This document shows positions 1-31,108 of a stretch of DNA of 31,108 nt, in pieces. This DNA comes from a virus: positions 1 to 31,108 of the IMG/VR virus record IMGVR_UViG_3300048999_000006; one strand, given 5' to 3'. The position numbers and the translations under genes were made by a program. Every line of letters starts with the position of its first letter. The stretch's first letter is position 1. Below the pieces are notes generated by a model. The model saw only the letters and a list, made by a program, of their open reading frames with translations, ran no database searches and was not told the origin of the DNA.

Positions 1-1
1 G

Positions 2-115
2 GACGAGCATCACATGAGGATGGAGGACGACGAGTACAACGAGCACTGCCCAGGCCCCACGTTCAAGGCCTGGTTGATCGGACAAGGAGGAGCGCGTGAG
101 CGCCAAGAGAAGTGA
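2..115 (+). CDS. 3' end of an unidentified gene, cut by the window edge
   Basis: This frame is open from the left edge to a TGA at 113-115 and has the GC-rich third positions of the neighbouring genes. It encodes 37 visible residues ending in GGARERQEK and is rich in Asp, Glu and His near its start. Two in-frame ATG codons (14 and 20) could be starts of a very small protein, but a longer gene beginning outside the window is more likely. It overlaps the next gene by 20 bases, as is common in this operon. No family is recognisable. Confidence 0.5.
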   Translation, partial: DEHHMRMEDDEYNEHCPGPTFKAWLIGQGGARERQEK

Positions 116-362
116 CGCAAGCAAGTTGCTGAAGCGGTGGGGCAAGATGGCCGAGAGGTACCAGGCCAGCATCGATCAGCAGCGCCACGTGATTGACCGA
201 CTCATGGCAGCGATGGCCGTGTACGCAGACCTAGCGTATGGGGTGGAGAACGAGGCCAAGGACGTCAAGCAGGCCCGCAAGTGGGCCAAGGAGGCGCAAG
301 CCAAGGTGGCGGCCATTCTGGCCGTACCACAGACGCAGCAGGAGGAGAAGAAGGATGGCTGA
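96..362 (+). CDS. Hypothetical helical protein, 88 aa
   Basis: The GTG start at 96 is preceded by a strong ribosome binding site (AAGGAGG at 84-90). The protein is basic at the N-terminus and then largely helical, with long Ala/Lys/Glu/Gln stretches consistent with a coiled coil. It has no membrane segment and no motif I recognise. It overlaps the next gene by 8 bases, so the two are probably translationally coupled. Function unknown. Confidence 0.7.
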   Translation: MSAKRSDASKLLKRWGKMAERYQASIDQQRHVIDRLMAAMAVYADLAYGVENEAKDVKQARKWAKEAQAKVAAILAVPQTQQEEKKDG

Positions 363-1008
363 GAGATACATCGACATCTTGTTCGATGGCCCACCGGACC
401 ACCAGGGTGGGCGGTTCGTTGAGGTCGAGAACGAGAGGGGACAGAGCATCAACGCTGGCACGTGGATCAGCCCTGTCGCGACCGAGGACGCAGACGGCAA
501 GAGCGATGGCCTGTGGAGGCTGCGCATCAAGGTCACGCCGTCGCTCAACAACATGGCTCGGATGATCCATGACGTCAGTACGGCGCATGGGTTCGATGCT
601 CCCAACCCGTCGAACCTGCCGAGCAAGTTGATGCTCAGCGTGACGGAGTTGGCTGAGGCCATGGAGGAGTTCCGTGACGACAAGCCAGCCGTGTACTGGA
701 AGTGCACGGCGTGCGGCATGGAGTCCTCCGAGCCTCTGTCGCCGGCCATCGCGCACAGGCCTACTGTCAGAGGGTTCTGGGGTCACCTGATGGCGCTGTA
801 CAACGCGGCGACGGGCAAGACCATCGAGTGTGATGGGAGCGAGTGGAAGCCTGAGGGTGTGGCGGTGGAGTTGGCTGACTCCAACATCAGGAACCTCCAC
901 ATGCTCGCATCGATGTACCCAGACCTGGATCTGGACTGGCTCCATCAGATCAAGATGGAGTTCAACGAGGGACGACCGATGAACCACGGAAGGATCAAGG
1001 CACTCTGA
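355..1008 (+). CDS. MazG-like nucleotide pyrophosphohydrolase with extra N-terminal module
   Basis: The protein (217 aa) starts at ATG 355, overlapping the previous stop; an upstream in-frame ATG at 238 lies inside the preceding gene and is rejected. Residues about 90-217 match the all-alpha NTP pyrophosphohydrolase (MazG-like) pattern: SVTELAEAMEEF at 95-106 supplies the first acidic helix, VELADSNIR at 171-179 the ExxD helix, and a C-terminal KMEFNEGRPMNHG typical of phage members. Such enzymes hydrolyse (d)NTPs to NMP and pyrophosphate. Two things are odd. There is an N-terminal module of about 60 residues (FVEVENERGQSINAGTW region). There is also an insertion of about 50 residues between the two acidic helices carrying a CxxC pair (C117, C120). 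It sits close to ThyX and a deoxyribosyltransferase-like gene, which fits nucleotide-pool control. The fold call is fairly firm; the substrate is unknown. Confidence 0.75.
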   Translation: MAERYIDILFDGPPDHQGGRFVEVENERGQSINAGTWISPVATEDADGKSDGLWRLRIKVTPSLNNMARMIHDVSTAHGFDAPNPSNLPSKLMLSVTELAEAMEEFRDDKPAVYWKCTACGMESSEPLSPAIAHRPTVRGFWGHLMALYNAATGKTIECDGSEWKPEGVAVELADSNIRNLHMLASMYPDLDLDWLHQIKMEFNEGRPMNHGRIKAL

Positions 1009-1286
1009 TGAACACACTGGACACCCTGCTCGCCTACAGCGAATGGCTGGACGGCGAGAAGATCAACCCCAGCGACTCCGAGGACGAGAGGACTCACGAG
1101 GACCTGGTGAAGCAGTTCATCGCACACTGGGACGAGAACCCAGAGCGCGCACGGCTTGCCGACGCAGCACAGGCGAACCTCGGCATGGCCACGACGTACG
1201 ACATCATCACGGAGTTGGCTGCGCGAGCAGACGTGGCTGACACGATTGGTGAGGACTGGCCCAGGTACAGGACGGTTGACTCATGA
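1008..1286 (+). CDS. Hypothetical acidic protein, 92 aa
   Basis: The start ATG at 1008 overlaps the stop of the MazG-like gene (TGATG). The protein is acidic, soluble and predicted helical, with Trp residues at both ends and a DEDERTHEDL-like charged stretch near residue 25. No catalytic motif or known family is visible. It is embedded between two nucleotide-metabolism genes and coupled to both, so a role in the same process is possible but is only inferred from position. Confidence 0.7.
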   Translation: MNTLDTLLAYSEWLDGEKINPSDSEDERTHEDLVKQFIAHWDENPERARLADAAQANLGMATTYDIITELAARADVADTIGEDWPRYRTVDS

Positions 1287-1657
1287 TCAAGGTGTACCTG
1301 AGCGGCCCCATCAACAGCGACGTGGGTGACGGGCTCGACAAGGACGACCACAAGGAGGCGTTCGCCGACCTGGCCAGGTGGCTCAAGCAGAACTACGGCA
1401 ACTGGGAGGTCGTGAACCCTTGCGAGGTCGGGCCGAACTGCAAGCAGATGGACTGTGGTCCGTTCGATGGCCACTCGTTCGGCTGCTGGCTCAAGGCCGA
1501 CCTCAAGGCCATGCTCGACTGTGACGCCATCTGCTTCCTGCCCTTCTCTGACCGCAGCATGGGTGCTCGGCTGGAGGGCCACGTCGCACAAGGCGTGGGC
1601 ATGGACACGTACTACGCAACGCCCATCGGGGCCACATCATGGAGGATCGACAGATGA
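1283..1657 (+). CDS. DUF4406 / nucleoside 2-deoxyribosyltransferase-like protein
   Basis: The 124-residue protein begins with VYLSGPI (residues 4-10), the characteristic first strand and loop of the nucleoside 2-deoxyribosyltransferase superfamily. It then has VVNPCE (43-48), a KADLKAMLDCDAICFLP strand (71-87) and GARLEGHVAQGVGM (94-107), in which E98 lies where the family's catalytic Glu is expected. Family members cleave or transfer the N-glycosidic bond of deoxynucleosides or nucleoside monophosphates. Phage DUF4406 proteins are mostly uncharacterised. A Cys-rich insertion (C53, C58, C68) breaks the usual helix spacing. ATGA overlaps at both ends tie it to its neighbours. Confidence 0.7.
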   Translation: MIKVYLSGPINSDVGDGLDKDDHKEAFADLARWLKQNYGNWEVVNPCEVGPNCKQMDCGPFDGHSFGCWLKADLKAMLDCDAICFLPFSDRSMGARLEGHVAQGVGMDTYYATPIGATSWRIDR

Positions 1658-1893
1658 CAGAGCAACGACCAGTCGAGTACATGTCGGCGCGCGAGGCCAG
1701 GCAGGAACTGCTTGCGTCCATCACGCCGTCACAGGCCATGGTGGTCCGGCTGATGGTGAGCATCCTCGCCAAGGCCTGGGGCACCTTCAAGGGCACGCTC
1801 ACTCCGAGGCAGAAGGAGTTGCTGGCGCGCATCGGCAAGGACGAGAACGTCAGCACCATGATCAGTGACGTCGAGGAGTTCGTGGAGCGATGA
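1654..1893 (+). CDS. Hypothetical protein, 79 aa
   Basis: ATG 1654 is preferred over the in-frame ATG 1639. It forms an ATGA overlap with the previous stop and has GGAGG about 8 bases upstream. The protein is mostly helical with a hydrophobic central helix (MVVRLMVSILAKAW) and a short TPRQKELLARI segment. No family recognised. It overlaps the ThyX start by four bases, so expression is coupled. Confidence 0.7.
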   Translation: MTEQRPVEYMSAREARQELLASITPSQAMVVRLMVSILAKAWGTFKGTLTPRQKELLARIGKDENVSTMISDVEEFVER

Positions 1894-3005
1894 ACGACCA
1901 GGTGCTTGGAGAGGCCATGCAGGACCTGCATGGTTACAACCCACTCAAGGAGGACAAGCCAGTGGCCAAGGAAGTACAGCGATGGGCCGACGACGCGATG
2001 TTCAAGGCTGAGCCGCTCAAGGCCAGCGACGGCATCAAGGTGTTCATGTTGGCCGGCACGCCCGATCCGTTGGGCGCCGTCGCAGCGATGAGCAAGATGT
2101 ACAAGGGTGAGGTGGTGCGAGACTTCGCAGACGTCACTCGTGAGGAGCGCGAGGAGTTCCTGCGTGAGATTCTCAAGACCAAGTTGAAGGCTCCGCTGGA
2201 GGCTGTGAAGATGCACTTCATGGTCGAGGGTGTGACGCGATCCTTCACCCATCAGATGGTCCGACAGCGGACTGCGGTGTACGCGCAGGAGTCTCTGCGG
2301 TTCGCCGTCAAGGAGGACATGGCCGAGGGTGTGGCGTACCCACCGAGCCTCATCGGTGTCGATGACTGGGAAGGCATCGGCGAGAGGAGCACGGATCAGG
2401 AGATGCTGGCCATCTGGGACAATGCCGTGAACTTCATCGACATGTCCTACAACCGTCTGGTCAACATGGGCATGCCGGCTGAGGATGCTCGTGGTCTGCT
2501 GCCGCACAACGTCACCACGCGGCTCAACTACGTGACTGACCTGCGCGCGCTCCAGGACCATGGTGGGAACCGTCTGTGTACGCAGGCTCAGTTTGAGTGG
2601 CGCATCTACTGGGTGCGACTCCTCGACGCCATGCGGCACTACTGCTCCAACCCGGTACACGGATCGGTGCCGCAGGCTCTCCATGAGGGCTCAAGCCATG
2701 CGTGCGACAACTGGCAGTGGGTGGCCATCGCGGACATCTTCAGGCCAGTCTGCTACCTGACGGGCAAGTGCGAGTTCAAGGCCAACTTCGATCGCAAGTG
2801 CTCCATCAGGGATCGTGTGGAGGCCAACCACAACATCGGTCGTCCGAGCGATGACTGGAGCGGGGAGTACGACCACGTGAAGGGCAACCCCATCGTGGCT
2901 GGAGTCGGCCCGAGGAGCGTGGTGCGTGACGAGGAGGACACGCCGGTGTTCATCGGTGCGATCCAGCCGCGCGAGTGGCTGTTGGACGCAGGTGCTGCGC
3001 GATGA
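1890..3005 (+). CDS. thyX: Flavin-dependent thymidylate synthase ThyX
   Basis: The 371-residue protein carries the ThyX signatures. The RHR-x7-S motif appears as RQRTAVYAQESLR (R125, R127, S135, R137), and a second conserved block, LLPHNVTTRLNYVTDLRAL followed by CTQAQFEWR, spans about residues 203-238. ThyX makes dTMP from dUMP using methylenetetrahydrofolate, FAD and NADPH. The canonical His of the motif is Gln here, a divergence at a usually conserved position. The protein is longer than the usual 220-250 residues because of a C-terminal extension of about 110 residues with several Cys (CYLTGKCEF and KCSIRDR). It sits downstream of MazG-like and DUF4406 genes in one coupled operon, pointing to supply or remodelling of the thymidine pool. 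Confidence 0.9.
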   Translation: MNDQVLGEAMQDLHGYNPLKEDKPVAKEVQRWADDAMFKAEPLKASDGIKVFMLAGTPDPLGAVAAMSKMYKGEVVRDFADVTREEREEFLREILKTKLKAPLEAVKMHFMVEGVTRSFTHQMVRQRTAVYAQESLRFAVKEDMAEGVAYPPSLIGVDDWEGIGERSTDQEMLAIWDNAVNFIDMSYNRLVNMGMPAEDARGLLPHNVTTRLNYVTDLRALQDHGGNRLCTQAQFEWRIYWVRLLDAMRHYCSNPVHGSVPQALHEGSSHACDNWQWVAIADIFRPVCYLTGKCEFKANFDRKCSIRDRVEANHNIGRPSDDWSGEYDHVKGNPIVAGVGPRSVVRDEEDTPVFIGAIQPREWLLDAGAAR

Positions 3006-5378: not shown

Positions 5379-5689
5379 GCCACGACCTCGCAGACAAGAT
5401 CAGGACAGGCACAGCATTCCTCTCAGCCGTAGGGCTCCTGCTGTTGGTGCTGGAGACCAAGCACCTGTGGAAGTTCATCAGCGGCGCAAGGAAGTTGCGC
5501 TACATCTCGCTGTCCATGTTCGGCTCAGCGATCTGCTACGGGTCGTTGGAGGCAGCGTACTGGCCACAGCATCAGATCAGGGTGGTGTGGCTGTTCCTCG
5601 CCGCGCTCTCCATGGTGATCGCAGGCTGGGCTGGAGTCAAGAAGAACAGAGACAACCGACAGGAGTACAACAACCGTGCTGGTAAGTGA
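5375..5689 (+). CDS. Membrane protein with about three transmembrane segments, 104 aa
   Basis: An ATGA overlap sets the start. Hydrophobic segments are visible at about residues 13-27 (TAFLSAVGLLLLVLE), 43-61 and 69-86 (VVWLFLAALSMVIAGWAGV), followed by a basic C-terminus, which suggests the tail is cytoplasmic. It is not next to the lysis genes, so a holin role is unlikely from context. It may act at the host membrane, for example in superinfection immunity, but that is inference. Confidence 0.6.
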   Translation: MSHDLADKIRTGTAFLSAVGLLLLVLETKHLWKFISGARKLRYISLSMFGSAICYGSLEAAYWPQHQIRVVWLFLAALSMVIAGWAGVKKNRDNRQEYNNRAGK

Positions 5690-6374: not shown

Positions 6375-6401
6375 GTCGGCCCGAGGGCTGGAGACGGTTA
6401 C

Positions 6402-8642: not shown

Positions 8643-8921
8643 ATGAGCGACGGGCAAACGCCCGAGCCTGTTGAGATCAGTGAGGCCATCTCCCAGCGAC
8701 TCAGTGAGGCCATCAACGCGGTCCTTGCCGAGGAGTTGGGAGGTGGCTTCCTCTCAGGGTTCATCGGGCTCGTCAAGTACATCGATGCGGATGGCGACAA
8801 CAACTGGTCGTTCGTGGCCATGGGCGACCAGTCGCTGGACACGTCCCTCGGGATGCTCCACATCGCCAACGCCATCACAGACAGGCAGATGAAGGAGGTG
8901 TGGGGTCTTGACCGTGGCTGA
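8643..8921 (+). CDS. Hypothetical protein, 92 aa
   Basis: It starts three bases after the EEP gene. An N-terminal helix (ISEAISQRLSEAINAVLAEE) leads into a small alpha/beta part with GFIGLVKYIDADGDNNWSF and a C-terminal helix. The D-x-D-x-D-x-N run (DADGDNN) resembles a calcium-loop spacing but lacks the rest of an EF-hand. It overlaps the terminase start by 14 bases. Function unknown. Confidence 0.65.
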   Translation: MSDGQTPEPVEISEAISQRLSEAINAVLAEELGGGFLSGFIGLVKYIDADGDNNWSFVAMGDQSLDTSLGMLHIANAITDRQMKEVWGLDRG

Positions 8922-10377
8922 TCAGACCACCATGCTAGACACGGCCCAGGTGTTCCGTTCTGCGAACTACCGGCCGCACGCAGGCCAGGTGCCGTACCAC
9001 GCGAGCGATGCGCGCAACAGGGTGGCGTCCTGCGGCCGACGGTTCGGCAAGTCCCAGATGGGTGGCCATGAGTTGGACCTGGAGGCCATGGCTACCAAGG
9101 CACACCTGGCGTACCTGGAGGAGGTACAGCAGCGGCGTGAGTTCTGGATCGTGGGGCCCAACTACTCCGACAGTGAGAAGGAGTTTCGTGTCCACTACAA
9201 CAGCCTGAAGCGCATGGGGTTCCCGTTCGACAAGCCTGGCACCTACAACAACCCTCATGGCGGCGACATGGTCATCTCGCTGTACAAGGGCAAGTACCTC
9301 GTCCAGGCGATGTCTGCGGCGCATCCCGAGAGCCTGGTGGGTGAGGGACTCAGCGGCGTGATCATGGCTGAGGCCGCCAAGCAGAAGGAGTCCACGTGGT
9401 CCAAGTTTCTGCGCCCGACCCTGGCTGACTTCCACGGCTGGTCTCAGTTCACCAGTACACCTGAGGGCAAGAACTGGTTCTATGACCTGTGGAACGACGG
9501 CCAGGATGTCACCAACCCTGACTGGGCGTCATGGCGCATGCCGTCGTGGCTGAACCCGTACGTGTACCCGATGGGCGCCACCGAGTCCAAGATCAAGACG
9601 CTGCGTGCTGCGTTGGAGGAGGGAGCGTTTGACTGGCGTCGTCTCGTCCAGCGGCTCGGCATCGACCCCGAGGTTGCGAGCCTGGTGCGTGACCTCAACG
9701 ATGCCACGTTCGATCAGGAGATTGGTGCTGACTTCAACACCATGGCTGGTCGCGTGTTCTCGGACTTCGATGAGGAGGTCCACGTCACAGACCTGCGCTG
9801 GAACCCGGCATGGGAGACGTACGCAGCAGTGGACTATGGCTTCACCAATCCGTTCGTGTGGCTGCTGATCCAGATTGATCCGTTTGGCTGCGTGTACGTG
9901 GTGGATGAGTACTACCAGCGAGGACTGACCATCGATGAGATCGCCTGGGAACTCTCGGCCCGTCCTGAGTTGACGGCTGGTGTCCGCTGGTTCTACCCAG
10001 ACCCGGCAAGCCCTGGTGACACAGTGGCGTTGGAGAAGCACCTGCGCATCCAGGCCCATGGAGGGACCGGTGGTGAGTTGGAGCATCGCCTGCGCTACAT
10101 CCGCGCAGCCCTCAAGGTCCGCAACCGTCACCTGGCGTTTGATGACCCTGATCGCAAGCCCAAGTTGCTCATCAACCGTCGGTGTACGCACACCATCGAT
10201 GAGTTCGGCAAGTACAGGTACCCAGAGAAGCGTGGTGAGCGCAACGACGACGAGAAGCCGATGAAGAAGGACGATCACACGCCTGAGGCACTGGGGCGGT
10301 TCTACGCAGGCCACTATGGCGAGCAGCCAGACGAGCAGGGAGGACAGGCGGCAGTGGTTCAGGCCCGTCTCGGGTAA
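8908..10377 (+). CDS. Terminase large subunit
   Basis: The 489-residue protein starts at TTG 8908, with GAAGGAGGTG seven bases upstream; GTG 8914 is a weaker alternative. It packages DNA into the prohead with an N-terminal ATPase and cuts it with a C-terminal RNase H-fold nuclease. The Walker A-like loop is CGRRFGKS (42-49). A hydrophobic strand ending in an acid (VIMAEAA, E155) replaces the usual DE Walker B. TSTPEGKNWF (182-191) is the coupling motif. Nuclease acids are D309 in AAVDYGFTN, E334 in VVDEYY and D365 in FYPDPAS. Length is normal. It is followed by a 34-base gap. Confidence 0.93.
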   Translation: MTVADQTTMLDTAQVFRSANYRPHAGQVPYHASDARNRVASCGRRFGKSQMGGHELDLEAMATKAHLAYLEEVQQRREFWIVGPNYSDSEKEFRVHYNSLKRMGFPFDKPGTYNNPHGGDMVISLYKGKYLVQAMSAAHPESLVGEGLSGVIMAEAAKQKESTWSKFLRPTLADFHGWSQFTSTPEGKNWFYDLWNDGQDVTNPDWASWRMPSWLNPYVYPMGATESKIKTLRAALEEGAFDWRRLVQRLGIDPEVASLVRDLNDATFDQEIGADFNTMAGRVFSDFDEEVHVTDLRWNPAWETYAAVDYGFTNPFVWLLIQIDPFGCVYVVDEYYQRGLTIDEIAWELSARPELTAGVRWFYPDPASPGDTVALEKHLRIQAHGGTGGELEHRLRYIRAALKVRNRHLAFDDPDRKPKLLINRRCTHTIDEFGKYRYPEKRGERNDDEKPMKKDDHTPEALGRFYAGHYGEQPDEQGGQAAVVQARLG

Positions 10378-20856: not shown

Positions 20857-21085
20857 CACCCTGCTTGGCGTGACTGATGAGTACGCTGCGTACTGCATCG
20901 ACCAGTCGGTGTACACGTTCGGGTCAGCGCTCCAGCACGCGCTTGAAGAAGTGGAAGGCAAGACCAAGGAGGAGATCAAGAGGAAGCGTGTGCGCATCAT
21001 CACCAGGTGGCTTGGTGGCGAACAGCAGTACCGCAACCCGATGGCTCCGACTGCTACACGCGCCGAACTTGAAGGAGTTCACTGA
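20293..21085 (+). CDS. Tail assembly chaperone, frameshifted (GT-type) product
   Basis: A second ORF in the +1 frame is open from before 20630 to TGA at 21083-21085 and overlaps the next start (TGATG). Its distinctive part, TEFKTRPSTLLGVTDEYAAY followed by CIDQSVYTFG, is the typical T domain of siphophage chaperones and lacks its own credible start. If the shift occurs at TTT 20788-20790, the fusion is 166 residues from the first frame plus 97 from the second, 263 in total. The T domain is thought to bind the tail tube protein. The exact slip position is inferred; the need for a +1 (or -2) shift is read directly from the frames. Confidence 0.75.
20788..20791 (+). other. Candidate +1 ribosomal frameshift site (TTT C)
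   Basis: In the G frame this reads AAG TTT CGT. The tRNA-Phe on TTT can re-pair one base downstream with TTC, which puts the ribosome in the T frame at GTG 20792. The UUU_CGU arrangement is the same as the influenza PA-X +1 motif. Phe is nearly always TTC in this phage, so TTT is a rare codon here. Confidence 0.5.
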
Positions 21086-23796
21086 TGTCGTTCGCGCTAG
21101 GCACAGCTGTTGGCAAGATCGTTCTGGACTATGACGGGTCCGGTGTCGATGAGGCCAAGAAGGACCAGACAGACCTTGAGAAGAAGTCTGGTAGCACGCA
21201 GAAGGCACTGGACAAGACGGGCCGCACAGCCGGCATCGCTGGTCTAGCCATCGCTGGCGGGCTCGCGCTCGCCGTCAACGCTGCTGCCAACTTCGACCAG
21301 AGGATGTCGGCCATCGCGGCTGTGTCTGGCGCGACAGGCAACGACCTGGATGCCCTGCGCGGCAAGGCTCTCCAACTCGGCAAGGACACGCAGTTCAGCG
21401 CGACCGAGGCAGCCACGGCCATCGAGGAGTTGGTCAAGGCTGGCGTCTCGGTCCCTGACGTCCTGAACGGCGCGGCTGACGCCGTCGTGAACCTGGCAGC
21501 CGCCGGAGAGATTGATCTCCCGCAGGCCGCCACGATCAGCGCCAACGCCATGAACGCCTTTGGCCTCCAGGCCAAGGACATGGTTGGCGTGGTCGACAGC
21601 ATCGCTGGTGCGGCCAACGCATCGGCCATCGACGTGGGCGACTTCGGCCAGTCCCTCCAGCAGGTCGGCGCTGTCGCACACCTGGCCGGCGTGAACTTCC
21701 ACGACACCGCAGCCGCCATCGCCATCATGGGCAATGCAGGCATCAGGGGCAGTGACGCCGGTACGTCCCTCAAGACGATGTTCCAGCGGCTCCAGCCGAC
21801 GACGCTGAAGCAGATCAGCACCATGGAGGACTTGGGCATCCTGACGCTCAACGCCAACAAGAGCATGGAGTTGCTGCGCTCCAACGGCGTGAAGCCTCTC
21901 GGGAACGACCAGGCCACGCTCAACAAGCAGATGGAGGCACTCGCTGCGAACCTGAGCGACTCCGACGTTGGCTCGGCCAAGGCTGCCAAGGAACTCCAGA
22001 AGTTGCAACTGCAGTCCGGTGCGCTCAGCAATGCGTTCTATGACCAGCACGGCAACACCAAGTCTCTGGCCGACGTCAGCCAGGTCCTTCAGGACTCGAT
22101 GAAGGGAATGAACAAGCAGCAGAAGCAGATGACGCTCAACACCCTGTTCGGCTCCGACGCGATCCGTGGCGCAGCGATTCTCTCGGAGGCTGGCGCCAAG
22201 GGGTTTGAGAAGATGGGCAAGTCCATGGACAAGGTCAGCGCTGCTGACGTTGCCGCCAAGCGCATGGACAACCTCAAGGGCAAGATTGAGATCATGAAGG
22301 GCTCCGTCGAGACGGCTGGAGTCGCCATCGGCACAGCCCTGGTCCCGATGCTCACGAGTCTCGTCAACGTCCTCACATCGGTCGTGAACGTGTTCCTCGG
22401 CTTCAGCAGCGGAACGCAGAAGGCAATCGTCGCAGTGGTCGCTGCTGTTGGCGCGTTCCTCCTGCTCGTCTCGGCCATCATCAAGATCGTCAAGTTTGCA
22501 AAGGAAGCACAGGCCACCTTCCTCATCCTGCAGACAGCCATCGAGGGCACGTGGATTGCTGCGCTTGGCCCCATCGCGCTCATCATCGCAGCCGTGATCG
22601 CGTTCATCGCCATCGTCGTGATCTTGTACAAGAAGTGGACACCGTTCAGGAACCTCGTCAACGCCGTGTGGGCTGCGATCAAGACGGCCATCAGCGCGGT
22701 GGTGGATTGGTTCCAGGGTGTACCAGGCATGTTCGGCGATGCCATCAACGCCATCCAGTCGTTCTTCAGTGGCCTGCTTGACTGGCTGACGTCGCACTGG
22801 CGGCTCATCATCAGCATCCTCCTCGGTCCGCTTGGCATCGCCATCGCGCTCATCACCAAGTTCTGGCCTCAGATCACTGCTGCCTTCACCAAGGGTGTGG
22901 ATGCGGTCAAGGCTGTGTGGGAAGGGTTCTGGAACACGTTCGGTGGCCTCATCACCGCAGCGTTCCAGTTGGTTGTTGCCATCCTCAACCTGGCCTGGGT
23001 GATCGTCAAGGGCCTGTTCCTGCTGCAGTTGATGGCGATCAAGGCCATCGTGATGACTGTGTTCAACGCCATCGCCGGAGTAGTCCGAGCAGCGTTCAAC
23101 ATTATCATGGGCATCGTCCATGCGGCGTTCAACCTGTGGTTGTCCATCGTCCGGGCTGAGTTGAACATCATCAAGGGCATCTTCCAGGCCGTGTGGAACG
23201 CGATCCATGCGGTGATCGCTGCCGTCTGGGGCAAGATCGGTGGCACCATCACTGGTGCTCTCAGCCGGGCCAAGGGTGCCGTGTCTGGTGCGTGGTCGTA
23301 TGTCTCGGGCGTCACGTCGAGGATGTGGAACGCGATCTGGGACGCCATCGTCAAGGCTGTGGGCAAGATCGGGACGACGCTCGACACCATCAAGACCAAG
23401 GCGCTGGATGCGCTCTCTGGTGCAGCGACATGGCTGTTCGACAAGGGCAAGGAGATCATCCAGGGCCTCATCGATGGCATGACGTCGATGATCGGGAAGG
23501 TCACTGGTGCGATCCACGGCATCACGAGCAAGGTCAGCGGCTTCCTGCCGGGTTCCCCGGTGAAGGAGGGTCCGCTGACGGTCCTGAACAAGGGGTACGC
23601 CGGCAGCCAGATCATCAACATGATCATCGACGGCATCACCGCCCAGCAGGGTGTGCTGGAGGCGACGTGGAGGCACCATCAAGCGCAAGAAGAAGGGCAA
23701 CGGTGGTGGGCACATGACCATGAGCGGTGCGCTGACGCTGAAGGACGGCCAGGCGTACGTCGAGGGGATCGCCTCAGGCCTGGACAACAACGATGA
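21085..23796 (+). CDS. Tape measure protein
   Basis: The 903-codon ORF is the longest in the middle of the tail block and starts in the stop of the chaperone gene. Residues about 65-260 contain the TP901-type tape-measure core (FSATEAATAIEELVKAGVSV and following). Two hydrophobic segments lie at about 447-515 (KAIVAVVAAVGAFLLLVSAI and ALGPIALIIAAVIAFIAIVV), and Trp/Ala-rich helical repeats follow. GSPVKEGPLTVLNKGYAG near 828 is typical of the late part. It sets tail length and helps DNA cross the membrane. The last 40 or so codons before 23796 read as out-of-frame sequence (RWWAHDHERC); the true C-terminus seems to lie in another frame ending at 23830. Confidence 0.85.
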   Translation: MSFALGTAVGKIVLDYDGSGVDEAKKDQTDLEKKSGSTQKALDKTGRTAGIAGLAIAGGLALAVNAAANFDQRMSAIAAVSGATGNDLDALRGKALQLGKDTQFSATEAATAIEELVKAGVSVPDVLNGAADAVVNLAAAGEIDLPQAATISANAMNAFGLQAKDMVGVVDSIAGAANASAIDVGDFGQSLQQVGAVAHLAGVNFHDTAAAIAIMGNAGIRGSDAGTSLKTMFQRLQPTTLKQISTMEDLGILTLNANKSMELLRSNGVKPLGNDQATLNKQMEALAANLSDSDVGSAKAAKELQKLQLQSGALSNAFYDQHGNTKSLADVSQVLQDSMKGMNKQQKQMTLNTLFGSDAIRGAAILSEAGAKGFEKMGKSMDKVSAADVAAKRMDNLKGKIEIMKGSVETAGVAIGTALVPMLTSLVNVLTSVVNVFLGFSSGTQKAIVAVVAAVGAFLLLVSAIIKIVKFAKEAQATFLILQTAIEGTWIAALGPIALIIAAVIAFIAIVVILYKKWTPFRNLVNAVWAAIKTAISAVVDWFQGVPGMFGDAINAIQSFFSGLLDWLTSHWRLIISILLGPLGIAIALITKFWPQITAAFTKGVDAVKAVWEGFWNTFGGLITAAFQLVVAILNLAWVIVKGLFLLQLMAIKAIVMTVFNAIAGVVRAAFNIIMGIVHAAFNLWLSIVRAELNIIKGIFQAVWNAIHAVIAAVWGKIGGTITGALSRAKGAVSGAWSYVSGVTSRMWNAIWDAIVKAVGKIGTTLDTIKTKALDALSGAATWLFDKGKEIIQGLIDGMTSMIGKVTGAIHGITSKVSGFLPGSPVKEGPLTVLNKGYAGSQIINMIIDGITAQQGVLEATWRHHQAQEEGQRWWAHDHERCADAEGRPGVRRGDRLRPGQQR

Positions 23797-23830
23797 CGAC
23801 TATGACGACACGATTGATAGGATGAACTGA
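23669..23830 (+). CDS. Displaced 3' end of the tape-measure gene (or separate 38-aa ORF)
   Basis: In the +1 frame relative to the tape measure, codons from 23669 read GGTIKRKKKGNGGGH, then MTMSGALTLKDGQAYVEG and an acidic end (LDNNDDDYDDTIDRMN). The stop at 23828-23830 overlaps the next start as TGATG. This fits a phage tape-measure end much better than the annotated frame. Skipping base T23668 joins LEAT to GGTIKRK smoothly. ATG 23714 could alternatively start a separate small gene. A natural indel, a programmed shift and a sequencing error all remain possible. Confidence 0.5.
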   Translation, partial: GGTIKRKKKGNGGGHMTMSGALTLKDGQAYVEGIASGLDNNDDDYDDTIDRMN

Positions 23831-25680
23831 TGGGCGCGCCAGTCACAGTCAAGAACGCCACGGACACTTGGGTCAACTCGGCCAAGCCGTCCAAGAACTA
23901 CGGCGAGGGGTCACGGCTGCAGTTGAAGACAGGCGCCAAGTCTGTACTGCTGTACTTCAACCGTCCGTGGACTCCTGGCTCCACGATCATGAGCGCCAAG
24001 TTGCGCGTGTACAACGTTGCGGCGTGGGCGGGCTCCGTGACGCTCACAGTCCAGCGTGCTGGGTCGGCTTGGTCGGTCAACAAGGCGAACTGGAACAACA
24101 AGCCTGCCGGCTCCGGTCCTACAGCGACCAAGAACCTGACTGGCGCTGCTGCCGGGACGATGTGGGAGATGGACGTTGCTCCGATCCTCCAGCCCATCGC
24201 CAACGGGCTCGCGTGGTACGGCCTGGTCCTGACCACGAACAACGCAGCCGACTCGGCCATCCACAGCGCACAGTCATCGTCTGGAGCACTGCGCCCGGTG
24301 CTGATCGTCCAGTGGAACGATCCTCCTGACGCCCCAGACAACCTGCGTCCTGCTGGTGGCCGCAACGCAGGCAAGGCCAGCCCATACGTCCAGTACGACT
24401 TCAACGACGCGAACGGAGACACTGACCTCCAGTCGCACCAGATCCAGTTCGGCGCGAGCACGGCCCTGCTTGACGCAGGCACCACGACGCTCGACCTCGG
24501 CGAGGTTGCCACGACCGTCCCTGAGGCAGACCTGAGCGATGCTGTCAAGTACCCGACATGGGTCGCGCTAGTTAGCGGGACTCAGAAGGCATGGAGGGTT
24601 CGCACCAAGGACTCTGCTGGCATCTGGTCTGTCTACTCGGACTCGCAGTTGTTTGGGTACCTCTCCAAGGGTGTCCTCACGATCACGAGCCCTGCTGTGG
24701 CGCCCAATAACTTCATCTGGGAGGGCAGCCCTGACGTCTCGTGGACGTTCACCGGTCGTACGCAGCGCGCGTACCAGGTGATCATCGCTGATGCGGCCGA
24801 CCCGAACACTTGGTTGTGGGACAGCGGGAAGATCACGAGCACTGCGACCTCGCAGACCATACCATTCCGTGTCATCAAGGACGCCGGCAAGTCGTACATC
24901 ATCACGGTGCGCATCTGGGACGACCAGGTCCGCGAGGCTCTGCCCAGCGACCCTGTGTACGTCGAGGGCACGATCACGGCCACAGTCGCCTACGACAACA
25001 CGGTGACTGCTGTGACTGCGCTCGCTGCGGTGTCGGACGCATACCTGCCCGTCGAGCACCTGACGTGGACGAGTGCCGTGGCTCCCGACTCCTTCCAACT
25101 CCAGCGCAGCAGCGACGGTGGCGCCACGTGGGAGTACAGGCGAGAGTTCTTGCCGACCGATGCGACCTTGGGCGGCACGTCGTACGGGTACGACGACAAC
25201 GGTGCGACTCCGTACCAGGCGTACCAGTGGCGTGTCATGAGGATCGTTGCAGGCAAGCAGTCTGGCAACAATCTTGTCGTCTCGGGACAGGTCCGCAAGT
25301 TGGCTCCGTTCCTGATGCGCAAGGACTCGACCGATGCTGTCTGCTTCCTGAACCCCAAGCGGAACAAGGGCAAGATGGACATCCAAGAGTTGATCCTGAC
25401 TCAGGCTGGCCCGCCCGTGCTCCAGACGCAGCGACTCGGAGGAGAGGCTGGGCACATCGAGGGAAGGTTCACGGACAACGACGCGATGGCCGGCGTGACC
25501 GCAGACATGCAGGCCGCGAGGTTTGAGCGGCTCCGCAAGGACAGCGGCATCGAGGTGACTGTGTACTACGCCAACCAGACGTTCAACGCCATCGCCTACA
25601 ACTTCCAGATCGACACGATCACAGACACTTCTGGCGTGTCGTATCTCGCATCGTTCGATTGGTTTGAGGTGCCCGCATGA
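23830..25680 (+). CDS. Minor tail protein with N-terminal DNRLRE domain
   Basis: The 616-residue protein starts with DTWVNSAKPSKNYGEGSRLQ and continues through LLYFNRPWTPGSTIMSAKLR to LRPVLIVQW near residue 163. This is the pattern of the DNRLRE beta-sandwich domain found on cell-surface and carbohydrate-associated proteins. Two or three fibronectin III-like domains follow (for example PPDAPDNLRPAGG and a LTWTSAVAPDSFQLQRSSDG strand pair). The C-terminus (TFNAIAYNFQIDTITDTSGV) resembles other siphophage distal tail proteins. It is coupled to the tape measure and the hub gene and probably forms part of the tail tip facing the cell. Confidence 0.7.
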   Translation: MGAPVTVKNATDTWVNSAKPSKNYGEGSRLQLKTGAKSVLLYFNRPWTPGSTIMSAKLRVYNVAAWAGSVTLTVQRAGSAWSVNKANWNNKPAGSGPTATKNLTGAAAGTMWEMDVAPILQPIANGLAWYGLVLTTNNAADSAIHSAQSSSGALRPVLIVQWNDPPDAPDNLRPAGGRNAGKASPYVQYDFNDANGDTDLQSHQIQFGASTALLDAGTTTLDLGEVATTVPEADLSDAVKYPTWVALVSGTQKAWRVRTKDSAGIWSVYSDSQLFGYLSKGVLTITSPAVAPNNFIWEGSPDVSWTFTGRTQRAYQVIIADAADPNTWLWDSGKITSTATSQTIPFRVIKDAGKSYIITVRIWDDQVREALPSDPVYVEGTITATVAYDNTVTAVTALAAVSDAYLPVEHLTWTSAVAPDSFQLQRSSDGGATWEYRREFLPTDATLGGTSYGYDDNGATPYQAYQWRVMRIVAGKQSGNNLVVSGQVRKLAPFLMRKDSTDAVCFLNPKRNKGKMDIQELILTQAGPPVLQTQRLGGEAGHIEGRFTDNDAMAGVTADMQAARFERLRKDSGIEVTVYYANQTFNAIAYNFQIDTITDTSGVSYLASFDWFEVPA

Positions 25681-26867
25681 TCGGGATCGGGAAGCACAAG
25701 GCCCACCTGAATGAGTTGGACACGGTCCTCAACACTGCGTACAGCATCCGCATCCGCGTGCGCCTGCTGGACCTGGACCACAACTACAAGAAGGACCTCA
25801 CGGACTACTTCTATGACGGCCTGGTGACGGTCGATGACACCGCACAGGTGACGCGCGCTCTGGACCTGACGCTGCTCGACCCCAAGCAGAAGGTCCACAT
25901 CGACCCGGACAGCCCGAGCCGCACGTCCATCTTCATCACGGACATGATCAGCATCATCTATGTAGTCAGCCGGCCAGACCGCACGAGGTCATGGGAGATT
26001 CCTGTGTTCTGTGGGCCTGTTGACGCCATGGATCGTGACGACGTGTACATCGACCTCAAGTGCCTCGGCAAGGAGTCTTTGAGCATCACGAACCTCTGGC
26101 GTGGCAGGACCTTCAAGAAGAACCAGCCCAAGACCGACGTCATCCGAGCGATCCTGCGCGACCTCGTGGGTGAGACCAAGTTGAGCCTGGTCGACAAGAG
26201 CGCCAAGATGCCGGACGACCGCAAGTTGAACCGCGCGAGCAAGCCGTGGCTGATCGCCAAGAAGTTGGCCAAGACCATGGGGTACCAACTGTTCTACGAT
26301 GGCCGTGGGTACGCGACCATGCGCAGGATTCAGCACAGGCCTGCGCTCAAGATGAATGAGCAGTGGATCACGACCGACCCCAAGGTTGCGTACGACCTCA
26401 GCCAGACGATCAACGCTGTGGAGGTCATCGGCAAGAAGCCCAAGAAGGCAAAGAAGCCTGTGTCGTACACGCTGGTTGCGAAGAAGTCGCACCCGTTGTC
26501 GCCATGGAGGATCGGTCGTGGAGGCGTCCCCAGGTACCTGTGGACCAGCGTCCAGGACGAGAGCCTCAGGACCACCAAGGAGTGCAAGAACCTTGCGAAG
26601 ATACTGCTGGCAGACGGGCTGCTCGCAGGAGTCGATGTCACGTATGACGGCGCTCCCCATCCTCGTCTACAGGAAGGTGATGTCATTGCTCTGCGGACTG
26701 ACCTGGTGTCGGTCAACTTCAAGGCGAGCAAGTTCACGATCCCGTTGACGGCAGGGACTGTCGCATCGTACGGCTACCACAAGCGACTGCGCCCCAAGGG
26801 TGGCCAGCGCATCATCAGGCCGCGCCACAAGCACCACCACCACAAGCCCAAGGAGAACGCTTCATGA
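25677..26867 (+). CDS. Tail tip hub / minor tail protein with His-rich tail
   Basis: The 396-residue protein overlaps its neighbours by four bases on both sides. Its N-terminal half (YSIRIRVRLLDLDHNYKKDL, then DGLVTVDDTAQVTRALDLTL and the FCGPVDAMDRDD strand) is typical of actinophage tail proteins related to gp27/gp44-like hubs. A central helical part (PKTDVIRAILRDLVGETK) and a beta domain follow. The last residues (RPRHKHHHHKPKENAS) contain four consecutive His, a possible metal site. It likely forms the platform that holds the fibre encoded next. Confidence 0.7.
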   Translation: MIGIGKHKAHLNELDTVLNTAYSIRIRVRLLDLDHNYKKDLTDYFYDGLVTVDDTAQVTRALDLTLLDPKQKVHIDPDSPSRTSIFITDMISIIYVVSRPDRTRSWEIPVFCGPVDAMDRDDVYIDLKCLGKESLSITNLWRGRTFKKNQPKTDVIRAILRDLVGETKLSLVDKSAKMPDDRKLNRASKPWLIAKKLAKTMGYQLFYDGRGYATMRRIQHRPALKMNEQWITTDPKVAYDLSQTINAVEVIGKKPKKAKKPVSYTLVAKKSHPLSPWRIGRGGVPRYLWTSVQDESLRTTKECKNLAKILLADGLLAGVDVTYDGAPHPRLQEGDVIALRTDLVSVNFKASKFTIPLTAGTVASYGYHKRLRPKGGQRIIRPRHKHHHHKPKENAS

Positions 26868-29710
26868 TTGAGACCGGCAAGATCACGAACGTGTGGATCG
26901 CAAACCTCGGGTCGGAGTTGGTCTCTGACGCAGCCGCAGCGCAAGCGTTACTGGTGGTGGACGATGCGTACGACTTCAACGAGACAGGCGGCACGTTGCG
27001 CCTGACGGACGACACCAACACCATCGACCTCCCGTACACGTCGGTCAACATGGACACCGACACGATCACGCTCACGGCTCCGCTGGCTGGCACGTGGCTG
27101 GCGGGTACTGATGTCGCAGTCCTCCCGTTGGGCCGGCAGAAGAAGGCACAGATTGACCTCAACGACGGTGATGAAGGCCCTGTCGCCATCGTGCCCATGA
27201 CGTTCGACACGATGCTGGACGACGGCATCCGCGAGCCTGACGAGCAAGAGGCTGTCCTGATCGATGACTCCTCGGGCCGTTGGGAGATCAGCGCAGTCGA
27301 TGACCAGCAGGGGATGGTGAACGGTTCGTCCGTCACCGGTGATGGCCTGCCGCAGTTCGTCCCGGTGGATCCTCCTCCGATCAGCCCTGCGCTCAAGGTC
27401 ACCGGCACGACCAACAGCCTGGTCATCGAGGCTCTGGATGAGGTGGCTGCTGGGACGCTGATCAACTACTACGTCAGCACAGTCTCTGGGTTCGTGCCTG
27501 ACCCCACCACACTTGTCTCAACGACCCCGGCCCAGGTCGCCGTGATCAGCGCTGATGCGACTGGCGCTCCTCTCCAGCCGGACACCACGTACTACGTCGT
27601 TGCCGTTGCTACCAACATCATCGGCTCCGCTCTGCCCTCGGCAGAGGTGCAGGGCCTCCTGAACCTCGACAACGTCGATGCTCTCATCGCCGCGCGTCTC
27701 GTCGTCGGCTTCATCCTCACGGGCTCCATCGCTGTCGGCAACATGACCATAGATGCGATCACCGGCATCACGATCAACGCAGCCGGTGGCGGCACCATCC
27801 TTCACTTCCCTGTGGATGGTGTCTCACCGCTGGAGTTGACAGCCAACGTCGTCGCGCAGTCGCTCAACGTCCAGGACAACCTGACCATCGCCGGTGGTGG
27901 AACCATCTATGGCAACCTCCAGATGGCCAACGGCATCCAGGACCCGCTGACGGCACCAGGGCTCTCGTCGTACTACCCATCGGTCAACACAGGCCTGTAC
28001 ACCGATGGCTCTGACCGTGCGTACTACTTCGCAGACATGGTTGAGTACCCAGCCGACACCACCAAGGTGGCCGTGGGCATGTCTGACTCTGCAGTCACTG
28101 GCGGTGCTGGGACAGCGATCTGGGTGTTTGACAAGATCACTGGCGCGTTCACCTCATCGCCAACGGGTGGTGGCAACGCATGGCAAAAGAACTTCTATGC
28201 GTGGGGTGGCATGACCTATTACAACGGGTCGTACTACTTCATGGGCCAGGACTATGACAGGGCTGCTGACTGGTACCTCTACCGAATCTCGGCAACGACA
28301 TGGGCACTCCAGACTGAGTTGAGGATCGGAGGCTCTGGCGCGTTCAACGGCTACAACCCGAGGATCGCTGCTGACGTCACCAACGCTCGGATCGCCATGG
28401 TGTGGATCCCCAACAGTCTCGACCTCACGCTGCGGTGGCTCAACCCGACGACTCTGGCGACCGTGGGAGCAGACAACGTCCTGTACGCGAACTGCGGCCA
28501 CTCCAGCATCGGCGCTGTCCACATAGGTGACCCCGGTATCGGATCGCAGAAGGTGCTGGTGGCACTAAAGGACCTGTCAGGATCGCCCTTCACCAAGGTA
28601 CTGTGTTGGAACCTTGCCACTGCGCCGACCCGAGACGCCACGCATGACTTCGCACGTGCGAACGGCAACAAGATCGAAGCGATGACGTACGACGTACCTG
28701 CTGGCGTGATGCTGACCATCGACATCGCTGGCCGGCTGAACCACTACGGCACCGGGATCGTGGACACGACCCACACAGCAGAGCACGCATGGTACGACGC
28801 CGATGTGACTGGAGGTACTCATGAGACTCACGTTGGCCCGTCCAAGTCCTACGTGCTGCCGGCTCGGGCGTACCTGAGCGTGTCGGTCCCGCCACCGCCC
28901 GACTTCACCAACCCGGACACATCCAACCACGACCGAGCGAACCAGGTCAAGTTGTACATGTCGAACAACGGTGGTACAACGTGGCACTACCAGATCTTCA
29001 CCACCACACCCTGGTCTGCGACCATGTTGAGCGTCAACGGCCTGCCGACGGACACTCCGAACGCAGGCGCTGCGTTCCCAGTCGCGCTCACACCTGCGGT
29101 CCTCCGGTCTGGCGCCATCAGGCTCGACGGCAAGCCCAAGTCGTACATCGACGGATCAGGCATCGCAAACCTGGATGGCCTGATCCCTCCCGGTGCGATG
29201 ATGATGTGGCCAGGCACTACTGCGCCTACAGGGTGGCTGATATGTAACGGCCAGGCCGTCTCCCGTGCGACGTACGCAGACCTCAAGGCAGCGGTGTTCG
29301 ATGGCACCAACCACAGGTTCGGCAACGGCGACGGTACAACAACCTTCAACGTGCCTGACTTCCGTGGAAGGTTCCCAGCAGGTGTTTCGCCATCGGGCTC
29401 GACGCTTGTGACGCCAGGCTCGTTTGAGACAGCATCGGTCGGTGGCACTGCACCAGGCGCCGCAGATGAGGCAAGGTTCAACCACAGGCACACGCACGAC
29501 CTGTCGATCACGATCAACACGCTGTCTGCCAACACGCAGACCAACACGACAACAGGAGGTACTGCCACTCGTGTGACGGGTCTGGCCGGCGACACGCCAG
29601 GCAACCACAGGCACGTTGGATCCACTGCGCTCTCCGAGGGAGTGGGTGGAGCAGGAGCGAACCTGCAGAACCACGGAATGCTTGGCATCAACTTCATCAT
29701 CAAGACGTGA
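26864..29710 (+). CDS. Tail fibre / receptor-binding protein with phage collar domain
   Basis: The 948-residue protein has an N-terminal beta part that resembles tail-attached domains, a fibronectin III-like unit (about 175-270), a Gly/Ile-rich stalk (VGNMTIDAITGITINAAGGG), and a large beta region (about 360-690) with repeated Trp/Tyr strands that may be a propeller. The C-terminus from residue 777 (GAMMMWPGTTAPTGWLICNG) is a tail collar domain. FNHRHTHDL and GNHRHVG after it give His-x-His pairs like those that bind metal in short-tail-fibre tips. This is the best candidate for host recognition. Confidence 0.75.
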   Translation: MIETGKITNVWIANLGSELVSDAAAAQALLVVDDAYDFNETGGTLRLTDDTNTIDLPYTSVNMDTDTITLTAPLAGTWLAGTDVAVLPLGRQKKAQIDLNDGDEGPVAIVPMTFDTMLDDGIREPDEQEAVLIDDSSGRWEISAVDDQQGMVNGSSVTGDGLPQFVPVDPPPISPALKVTGTTNSLVIEALDEVAAGTLINYYVSTVSGFVPDPTTLVSTTPAQVAVISADATGAPLQPDTTYYVVAVATNIIGSALPSAEVQGLLNLDNVDALIAARLVVGFILTGSIAVGNMTIDAITGITINAAGGGTILHFPVDGVSPLELTANVVAQSLNVQDNLTIAGGGTIYGNLQMANGIQDPLTAPGLSSYYPSVNTGLYTDGSDRAYYFADMVEYPADTTKVAVGMSDSAVTGGAGTAIWVFDKITGAFTSSPTGGGNAWQKNFYAWGGMTYYNGSYYFMGQDYDRAADWYLYRISATTWALQTELRIGGSGAFNGYNPRIAADVTNARIAMVWIPNSLDLTLRWLNPTTLATVGADNVLYANCGHSSIGAVHIGDPGIGSQKVLVALKDLSGSPFTKVLCWNLATAPTRDATHDFARANGNKIEAMTYDVPAGVMLTIDIAGRLNHYGTGIVDTTHTAEHAWYDADVTGGTHETHVGPSKSYVLPARAYLSVSVPPPPDFTNPDTSNHDRANQVKLYMSNNGGTTWHYQIFTTTPWSATMLSVNGLPTDTPNAGAAFPVALTPAVLRSGAIRLDGKPKSYIDGSGIANLDGLIPPGAMMMWPGTTAPTGWLICNGQAVSRATYADLKAAVFDGTNHRFGNGDGTTTFNVPDFRGRFPAGVSPSGSTLVTPGSFETASVGGTAPGAADEARFNHRHTHDLSITINTLSANTQTNTTTGGTATRVTGLAGDTPGNHRHVGSTALSEGVGGAGANLQNHGMLGINFIIKT

Positions 29711-29716
29711 GACACG

Positions 29717-29722
29717 TAGACT
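29717..29722 (+). promoter_or_regulatory. Candidate -10 element (TAGACT) before the lysis block
   Basis: TAGACT lies in the 31-base gap between the fibre gene and the holin-like gene, 20 bases before its GTG. It matches the element at 17546. It may allow separate expression of lysis genes; no -35 box is seen. Confidence 0.3.
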
Positions 29723-29741
29723 ACAGCGAGAGGAGGCCACA

Positions 29742-29960
29742 GTGAGAGACTGGCAGTTCGATGTGATCTTCTGGCTCGGAATCATCGGTGCGCTAGTCAT
29801 GCTGTTCAGCGATCCTCTCGGGATCACGGTTCGGCCCGAAGTGGTGACCCTGTTCGGGGTGATGTTGGCGTTCGTGTACCAGCAGAAGCAGAGGATCAAC
29901 AACGACAAGGAAGATTCCAAGAAGCACAGGAAGCGGAAGGAGGACGAGGACGATGGATGA
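29742..29960 (+). CDS. Holin-like membrane protein, 72 aa
   Basis: The GTG at 29742 has AGAGGAGGCC upstream; longer in-frame ORFs would run into the fibre gene. Two hydrophobic helices are visible (VIFWLGIIGALVMLFSD and VVTLFGVMLAFVYQQ), followed by a strongly charged C-terminus (KEDSKKHRKRKEDEDDG). Size, two-helix topology and charged tail fit small class II holins, and the gene lies between the tail and a probable endolysin. The holin call is by form and context only. Confidence 0.6.
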   Translation: MRDWQFDVIFWLGIIGALVMLFSDPLGITVRPEVVTLFGVMLAFVYQQKQRINNDKEDSKKHRKRKEDEDDG

Positions 29961-30135
29961 CCTTCAGATCAGGCTGGTGTTCCTGCTTGTGGGCCTCATC
30001 CTTGGCTACACCGCAGGCTGTGCCAAGTCAGCGATGCTCTACGCTCGCGCGATGAAGAAGGAAGTGCATGAAGTGAGGCATGAGGTCCACGTCATCATGA
30101 CGCTGCTCAAGCCAGAGGAGGAGGAGCAGTCATGA
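29953..30135 (+). CDS. Small membrane protein of the lysis block, 60 aa
   Basis: It starts inside the 3' end of the holin-like gene. A single hydrophobic helix (LVFLLVGLILGYTAGC) is followed by an amphipathic charged helix and an acidic tail (LLKPEEEEQS). It may be a holin partner or antiholin, but a specific role is not shown. It overlaps the next gene by four bases. Confidence 0.6.
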   Translation: MDDLQIRLVFLLVGLILGYTAGCAKSAMLYARAMKKEVHEVRHEVHVIMTLLKPEEEEQS

Positions 30136-30572
30136 TTCTCAGGAAGAACTGGCGCGACCTTGTGTTCTGGCCCGTGGTGTTCGCCATCGTGGCGCTGTCG
30201 TTCTGGCAGACCACGAGGACCAACGACCGGCTTGCGGCCGGCCAGCAGCAGCAACTCGTGTCCCAGCAGTGCACTACAGACTTCCTGGGTCGCGCGTTTG
30301 AGGTGCTGAACGAAAGGACCCAGGCTGCGCCCGAACTGAACCAGGCGGACAAGACCAAGACTGAGGCTGAGGCTAGACTGTTCGGCTTCCTGGTCAAGGC
30401 CACAGGGTCCAACAGCGCGTTTGACTCTGATGAGTTCAACAAGCGCATCAACGACTACTTCCAGGGCATCAGCAAGTACCTCACTGCTCTCGGGAGAACG
30501 AACATCGACCAGCAGACCAACCCAGTCCCAACCAAGGAGGACTACCAGGCCTGCTTGAGAGGAGGAGGATGA
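30132..30572 (+). CDS. Membrane-anchored protein of the lysis block, 146 aa
   Basis: After a short basic start (MILRKNWRD) comes one hydrophobic segment (LVFWPVVFAIVALSFW). A helical domain follows, predicted outside the membrane, rich in Gln, Glu and Lys, with a Cys near the start (SQQCTTDFLGRAF) and one at the end (YQACLRGGG) that could pair. This fits an N-in membrane protein with an extracytoplasmic coiled domain, such as a spanin-like or holin-accessory protein. The assignment is by topology and place, not by a motif. Confidence 0.6.
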   Translation: MILRKNWRDLVFWPVVFAIVALSFWQTTRTNDRLAAGQQQQLVSQQCTTDFLGRAFEVLNERTQAAPELNQADKTKTEAEARLFGFLVKATGSNSAFDSDEFNKRINDYFQGISKYLTALGRTNIDQQTNPVPTKEDYQACLRGGG

Positions 30573-30718
30573 TGGAGAAGCACCCATGGGAGGAGTTGGA
30601 CACTGATCTGCCGGAGCCCGGCACGATCACCGACACCGACCACGGCATCCCTGGTCCGGCAGAGGCTCTGCCTGATGGCGATGCCGACACCGATGACCCT
30701 GACGTCGAGGAGGACTGA
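30572..30718 (+). CDS. Very acidic small protein, 48 aa
   Basis: GAGGAGGAGG precedes ATG 30572, which overlaps the previous stop; ATG 30569 is an alternative. The peptide is rich in Asp, Glu, Pro and Gly (GDADTDDPDVEED at the end), has no hydrophobic helix, and is probably disordered. It overlaps the following gene by one base (TGATG). Function unknown. Confidence 0.55.
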   Translation: MEKHPWEELDTDLPEPGTITDTDHGIPGPAEALPDGDADTDDPDVEED

Positions 30719-31108
30719 TGACTGTCCTCACGATGACCGGGAAGCAGTTGGACTACACCAAGCGGCTCGACGCCACGATGCTCGTGCGCTGGGACACCCT
30801 GTGCGACAACGGCAAGGTGTTCAAGGGGTCGCTGCGTACGGTCGCACACATGGACTCGCTCTCGGCTGCGGCTGTGCGGAAGTTCGGGACACGCATCCAC
30901 GTGATCCAGCCTCCGTACAACACTGGGGTCCCTGCGTCTGCCGGCACGCACGACTTCGACTGCTGCTCAGACATCTACATCCCCGGAGTCGCATGGTGGA
31001 CCGCGCAGAGGTTCCTGCGTGCTCGTGGGTTCGGCTGCTGGTATCGGCACCCACCGCTGTTCGGCAACCACATCCATGGCTTCACGGTCCCTGCGGACGG
31101 ATGGCACT
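30718..31108 (+). CDS. Probable endolysin, M15-type peptidase domain (cut by window edge)
   Basis: Translation from ATG 30718 is open to the right edge (130 residues seen). GTHDFDCCSDI (76-86) gives the His-x6-Asp spacing of M15 D-Ala-D-Ala/L-Ala-D-Glu type peptidases (H78, D85). RGFGCWYRHPPLFGNHIHGF (102-121) supplies the closing His-x-His (H118, H120). In phages this domain cuts cell-wall peptides and usually forms the first part of an endolysin. Placement right after the membrane proteins supports a lysis role. Any cell-wall-binding domain would lie beyond the window. Confidence 0.65.
   Translation, partial: MTVLTMTGKQLDYTKRLDATMLVRWDTLCDNGKVFKGSLRTVAHMDSLSAAAVRKFGTRIHVIQPPYNTGVPASAGTHDFDCCSDIYIPGVAWWTAQRFLRARGFGCWYRHPPLFGNHIHGFTVPADGWH

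Follow-up and report, generated by a model that had tools for sequence, protein, structure and literature searches.

Elimination of recognition sites is a known anti-restriction strategy. A survey of viral genomes found complete or almost complete elimination of a site in about one-tenth of them, essentially only for sites of orthodox Type II systems and more often in non-temperate phages (Rusinov et al., 2018; PMC6286503). In haloviruses of the HF1 group, CTAG and GATC are wholly absent, HRTV-7 has no AGCT, and TGCA is partly depleted (PMC7230728). The word AGCT is recognized by the AluI system, whose methyltransferase M.AluI is a C5-cytosine enzyme (PMC11879396), and by m4C methyltransferases of Thaumarchaeota and Methanomicrobiales, described as orphan (PMC6329791; PMC10609329). 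Here we analyze the loss of AGCT from the virus record IMGVR_UViG_3300048999_000006, a fragment of a tailed phage genome taken at its full length of 31108 bases (the window), and from its relatives.

The window is an unusually complete and clean case of such elimination. As in the cases of Rusinov et al. (2018), a double-stranded DNA tailed phage has lost a palindromic 4-bp site, with an observed/expected ratio below 0.1 at an expectation above 15 (1/110 and 1/120.4 under the two models given below). The family of the window differs in that it switches its state several times with almost no intermediates. Such an all-or-nothing, repeatedly switched AGCT state within one family is less usual. 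The HF1-group haloviruses share with the window the elimination of 4-bp palindromes, of AGCT itself in HRTV-7, and a partial depletion of TGCA; however, they are unrelated haloarchaeal myoviruses with one AGCT-free member, compared with 19 contigs from several sublineages here. The m4C methyltransferases modify the very word avoided by the window, but they are archaeal and orphan, whereas the window family is actinophage-like. Nothing relevant to AGCT or AluI sites of actinophages was found in the literature searched. The completeness of the loss (0 of about 190 sites in 62 kb), together with the existence of AGCT-rich relatives, makes this family a clean natural experiment that could show by what course a phage genome loses a 4-bp word and if intermediate states last. 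The AGCT state also offers a means of host prediction for uncultured phages and of specificity assignment for uncharacterized restriction systems.

A preceding sequence-only reading of the window had reported a single AGCT, at the start of the tape-measure gene, where about one hundred copies would be expected. The exact count agrees, placing the sole copy at codons 7-8 of that gene, and the expectation is 107.8 from base composition and 110.0 under a second-order Markov model, in which AGCT has by far the largest deficit among the 4-mers. When synonymous codons are permuted such that neither the proteins nor the codon usage as a whole change, 120.4 +/- 6.9 copies are expected, the lowest of 200 shuffles containing 101 (z ~ -17); genes for the shuffles were called by a simple purpose-written caller, and counts made without it agree. 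Equal depletion in a codon-preserving shuffle, which that reading had named as a refuting outcome, is thus not what is seen. Neighboring words are plentiful (GATC 208, GTAC 176, GGCC 256, GGCT 229, AGCC 159), as had also been noted for all of these but GGCC, and in the matrix of the sixteen xGCy words the entries other than AGCT range from 46 to 266. The phage family does have strong biases, such as a paucity of A/T runs. Nevertheless, codon bias is ruled out as the cause because the codon-preserving shuffle expects 120 copies; the deficit is independent of protein sequence and codon usage.

The same avoidance is visible in individual codon contexts, counted over the window and its sister contig L001. 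Leucine that follows an xAG codon is encoded by TTG in 94 of 94 cases, compared with 31 of 189 (16%) in AGCT-normal sisters. Where the preceding codon ends in A, alanine is written GCT in 2 of 143 cases, and elsewhere in 316 of 1284 (25%). Serine AGC before T is used in 0 of 98 cases, against 251 of 654 (38%) elsewhere. The leucine and alanine contexts are those in which the sequence-only reading had seen AGCT avoided through codon choice, including the shunning of GCA GCT for Ala-Ala, and the counts uphold it.

To place the window among its relatives, 246 loci, nearly all from its phage family, were scored by the codon shuffle; most relatives are fragments, and loci of one contig overlap. The distribution of the observed/expected ratio is bimodal: 25 loci have 0.02 or less, one has 0.07, the range from 0.1 to 0.3 is nearly empty, and the bulk lies between 0.7 and 1.3. 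For palindromes other than AGCT (those of A/T only aside), at most 6 loci each show near-absence, compared with 25 for AGCT. Contigs with 0 or 1 AGCT are the window and 18 others from public metagenomes, some of them near-duplicates (L044/L064, L239/L240). Among these, G001 (61,687 bp) and G002 (57,760 bp), with terminal repeats of 60 and 127 bp, contain no AGCT at all against 192 and 142 expected, and G003 (55.7 kb) and G004 (49.5 kb) have one each against 162 and 138. AGCT-normal records of comparable size contain 160-292 copies, and the cultured relatives Kurnik, Wollypog, Suzy, P3.1, Sparcetus, Cuke, LilyPad, and Crestdrop are all AGCT-normal, with ratios of 0.95-1.15. In the comparison with related phages that the sequence-only reading had proposed, most relatives are thus near expectation. 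AGCT is also low in L022 (1-21122; 9 AGCT against 79) and L010 (1-12640; 10 against 44). Here AGCT is low by composition, since AGC and GCT are themselves scarce, and a ratio of about 0.4 remains after the codon shuffle; we read these loci as a different or fading state.

A loss of AGCT could also be produced by the library itself, for example by AluI digestion before sequencing. Since AGCT-normal and AGCT-free contigs were assembled from the same metagenomes, such an artefact is ruled out: in 3300015371, AGCT-free L001 and L193 occur alongside AGCT-normal L026 and L196 (L196/G018), and in 3300015374, AGCT-free L044 occurs alongside AGCT-normal L062, with L063 likewise normal beside L044. Together, bias of composition or codon usage and library artefact are refuted by these controls and retain next to no probability.

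In the portal and capsid trees, which were built by fast methods, AGCT-free phages are interspersed among AGCT-normal ones. At least three changes of state are forced by well-supported nodes, and about 10 are required on the FastTree phylogeny of 158 major capsid proteins (MCPs). As judged from these trees, the AGCT-free state arose several times within one virus family. The closest pair of opposite state is G003 and G030, with a capsid path length of 0.21 (L243 to L218); the capsid locus representing G030, L218, has 165 AGCT against 129 expected. At codons conserved between G003 and G030, AGCT is kept at 0 of 15 sites, GATC at 11 of 14, and TCGA at 14 of 16. A similar picture is seen when the AGCT sites of six normal genomes are followed at aligned conserved codons: the window keeps 0 of 64, and five further AGCT-free phages keep 0-1 of 52-72, compared with 108/170 and 37/72 in normal-to-normal controls. 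GATC, GTAC, and TCGA are often retained by the AGCT-free phages at such sites.

The fate of the lost sites bears on whether selection was involved. Mutational decay without selection would be an alternative, in which AG(5mC)T produced by a host methyltransferase is deaminated to AGTT or AACT. In its favor, AGTT/AACT is over-represented in the window (187 against 121 in the codon shuffle), and most leucine contexts at aligned sites went to these words. However, decay of serine AGC before T should yield the synonymous AGT-T, which occurs in 0 of the 98 contexts counted above, TCN being chosen in its place; accordingly, the aligned AGC-T sites have mostly become TCGT, TCCT, or TCAT. Many aligned alanine GCT sites became GCC or GCG, losing the final T and retaining the C, which is not a product of deamination. 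Nor would decay alone be expected to reach exactly zero in 60 kb. The serine and alanine contexts argue against 5mC decay, and we regard it as very unlikely.

Of the explanations considered, only selection by an AGCT-specific restriction system accounts for all the observations. It is favored because the palindrome is lost in every codon phase while its one-letter neighbors are spared, because the state is all-or-nothing and has several origins, and because none of the methyltransferase families searched was found in the phages. PF00145 and PF02086 were not found in the AGCT-free records searched, and PF01555 gave only one sub-threshold match, in G004; no DNA methyltransferase family was found among the 20 window genes run against Pfam, and PF00145 has no match in the window record. 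Under this scenario, the hosts would carry a Type II restriction-modification system of AluI-type specificity that cuts unmodified AGCT within incoming phage DNA, and phage genomes rid of every AGCT would escape cutting. Sites were lost by synonymous changes in all three codon phases, by leucine CTN to TTG or a preceding xAG to xAA, by serine AGC to TCN, and by alanine GCT to GCC or GCG. The published link between elimination and non-temperate phages may be set beside our observations on lifestyle: prophages related to this phage family exist, and tyrosine integrase (PF00589) was not found in 16 records, including near-complete ones, in a search that did not cover serine integrases.

A phage-borne cause is conceivable as well. 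If the phages encoded an AGCT-specific nuclease that degrades host DNA, purging their own sites would make them immune, and the resulting elimination would likewise be all-or-nothing. The gene may be missing from the window and from several further AGCT-free records because these are fragments. However, when proteins from eight AGCT-free and six AGCT-normal genomes were clustered, no family was present in all of the former and none of the latter. The best candidate family (5/8 free, 0/6 normal) bears a JAB/M67 metallopeptidase motif. It was rejected as the cause because the annotation of the cultured phage P3.1, which is AGCT-normal, includes an M67 family metallopeptidase. A phage nuclease is therefore improbable. 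About as improbable is another AGCT-targeting defense, such as a methyltransferase-linked system or a palindrome-reading nuclease of a new type. The agent itself has not been observed, and the methyltransferase of the candidate locus described below also matches the Druantia-associated DruM profiles in PADLOC, which would suit such a defense; on the other side, near-complete elimination is essentially confined to orthodox Type II sites in the published survey (PMC6286503), and the lead locus is a compact pair of methyltransferase and HNH nuclease genes resembling Type II systems.

With codon bias, artefact, decay, and a phage-borne cause set aside, restriction by an AGCT-specific host system remains, and we consider it very probable that long and strong purifying selection by such a Type II system explains the purge. 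The sequence-only reading had proposed selection by an AGCT-cutting system; the specificity of the loss, the all-or-nothing state of the relatives, and the several origins support it. We infer a restriction enzyme as the agent, carried by an actinobacterial host. Several observations weigh against this explanation. The search turned up no AGCT enzyme in any confirmed host. Relatives with normal AGCT occur in the same metagenomes as AGCT-free ones, so the pressure is not common to the whole community. TGCA is only partly depleted, and a second pressure may thus act. Finally, restriction alone does not explain why the sole surviving AGCT sites of the window (21102-21112) and of its sister L001 (12456-12466) lie in the same 11-mer, CACAGCTGTTG, in different genes. 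The chance of the seven flanking bases matching is roughly 6e-5 by base composition; the shared 11-mer may be explained by poor cutting in this context, by a function of the site, or by coincidence.

For the host side, the ratio of GAGCTG to the reversed word GTCGAG served as a proxy of AGCT content in 297 genomes of one actinobacterial order. The lowest-ratio genomes were picked out by reading the proxy table, for their low AGCT and before any locus was found in them. The two lowest values belong to G224 (0.106) and G041 (0.119), the latter a Demequina metagenome-assembled genome that holds a prophage (L094) of the window's capsid family; 23 other sampled members of the G041 family have a mean of 0.356 and a minimum of 0.223. 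The codon-shuffled AGCT ratio is 0.19-0.24 for G041 and 0.35-0.43 for G224, compared with 0.88-1.11 for another Demequina genome, G056. The only orthologous methyltransferase pair common to G041 and G224, among the C5 and N4/N6 types found, is a C5 enzyme (PF00145; 66% identity). Beside it lies a gene for an HNH_2 nuclease of 269-273 amino acids, and in both genomes the locus adjoins a tag glycosylase gene. The full-length nuclease occurs at 50% identity or more in only these two of the 297 genomes. If independent, the two carriers would coincide with the two lowest proxies with a probability of 2.3e-5; however, they may reflect a single inherited event, because they share one family and the locus is syntenic. 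In G056, a 54% identical methyltransferase adjoins a DUF4420 gene and not an HNH gene, and AGCT is not depleted. Among 396 phylum-wide genomes, no further carriers of the HNH gene were found besides the query genome and one 39% homologue, and neither the plasmid nor the PDB search with its protein brought up an informative homologue. The prophage in the candidate Demequina genome is only mildly depleted in AGCT.

By this correlation, the chance that the pair is AGCT-specific is about even or a little better, and that it is the agent for the lineage of the window is far less probable. The suggested search of likely hosts for AGCT methyltransferase and restriction genes has thus yielded a candidate pair by correlation, and no enzyme tied to the host of the window. 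The pair, a C5-methyltransferase next to a separate nuclease, has the make-up of an AluI-type system and is a candidate for AGCT specificity. It seems rather unlikely, though worth stating, that AGCT content is a binary, repeatedly switched record of host restriction whose agent is an uncharacterized C5-methyltransferase and HNH system of Demequina-type actinobacteria rather than classical AluI.

The window comes from the genome of an actinophage-like siphovirus. Its gene set includes terminase, portal, head morphogenesis, major capsid, tape-measure, and tail-fiber proteins, ThyX thymidylate synthase, and a pyrophosphatase (Table 1). The portal and capsid proteins have homologues of approximately 34-46% identity in phages of Gordonia, Microbacterium, Mycobacterium, Micrococcus, Nocardia, and Arthrobacter, and related prophages lie almost all within genomes of Actinomycetota; an actinobacterial host is therefore likely. 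AluI, whose recognition sequence is the word avoided by the window, comes from the actinobacterium Arthrobacter luteus, and thus from the phylum of most named hosts of the window-related phages. Megablast of the window against known phages gave no match, and neither a terminase scan of genome contigs nor a tape-measure scan of viral contigs found relatives. Sharing of tail proteins was rejected as a host marker, being common to AGCT-free and AGCT-normal phages: homologues of one or other of the three tail proteins also occur in AGCT-normal L280 and L283. An uncharacterized gene at 5676-6374 has a borderline match to a sulfotransferase domain (PF00685, 22 bits, at the cut-off).

Table 1. Features of the window and of the candidate host-side locus.
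Feature	Coordinates	Strand	Remarks
Whole window	1..31108		AGCT, a palindrome, nearly gone from either strand, within genes and between them
ThyX-type thymidylate synthase	1890..3005	+	Non-structural region, without AGCT; Pfam PF02511, 2.5e-30; PHROG thymidylate synthase
Terminase large subunit	8908..10377	+	PHROG 2, 1.9e-41; query for relatives
Portal protein	11814..13292	+	PHROG 64; homologues in Gordonia, Microbacterium, Mycobacterium, Micrococcus, and Arthrobacter phages
Major capsid protein (MCP)	15831..17096	+	PHROG 3990, 1e-104; basis of the family tree
Tape-measure protein	21085..23796	+	PHROG 1533, 6e-108; bears the sole AGCT
Sole AGCT of the window	21105..21108		Context CACAGCTGTTG, Thr-Ala-Val ACA GCT GTT
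Three tail proteins	23830..29710	+	All three have homologues in G003 and the first two in L279, both AGCT-free
Candidate pair, C5-methyltransferase and HNH_2 nuclease	L287 1438-3615; L288 1498-3603	convergent	Conserved in two AGCT-depleted actinobacterial genomes

Other words are depleted as well. TGCA occurs 46 times in the window against 139 under the Markov model, and 30 times against 79 at avoidable sites, with forced Met-His and Met-Gln removed. The depletion is similar in L001, L007, and G004 and is not seen in most other AGCT-free phages; perhaps it reflects a second, weaker restriction pressure. Runs of four A/T are almost absent from the window (15 against 679 by composition, 13 against 181 in the codon shuffle), and G/C runs of six likewise fall short of expectation. 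The scarcity of A/T runs is independent of AGCT, as it is strong not only in the window and L001 but also in AGCT-normal G030, and is weaker across the family. CGCG has a ratio of 0.31 (22/72) in L001 (1-13951) and 0.72 in the window. Other contigs recovered in the searches lack or almost lack one other palindrome each: GATC is absent or nearly absent from L067, L071, L072, L203, L205, and L206, CCGG from L198, and CGCG from L162, L212, and L232. In L075 (1-6196), from a distant phage contig of 38% GC, the genes have no AGCT, TGCA, AATT, or CATG, ACGT and GTAC are nearly gone, and ATAT, TATA, and TTAA are retained; we read this as avoidance of many palindromes at once.

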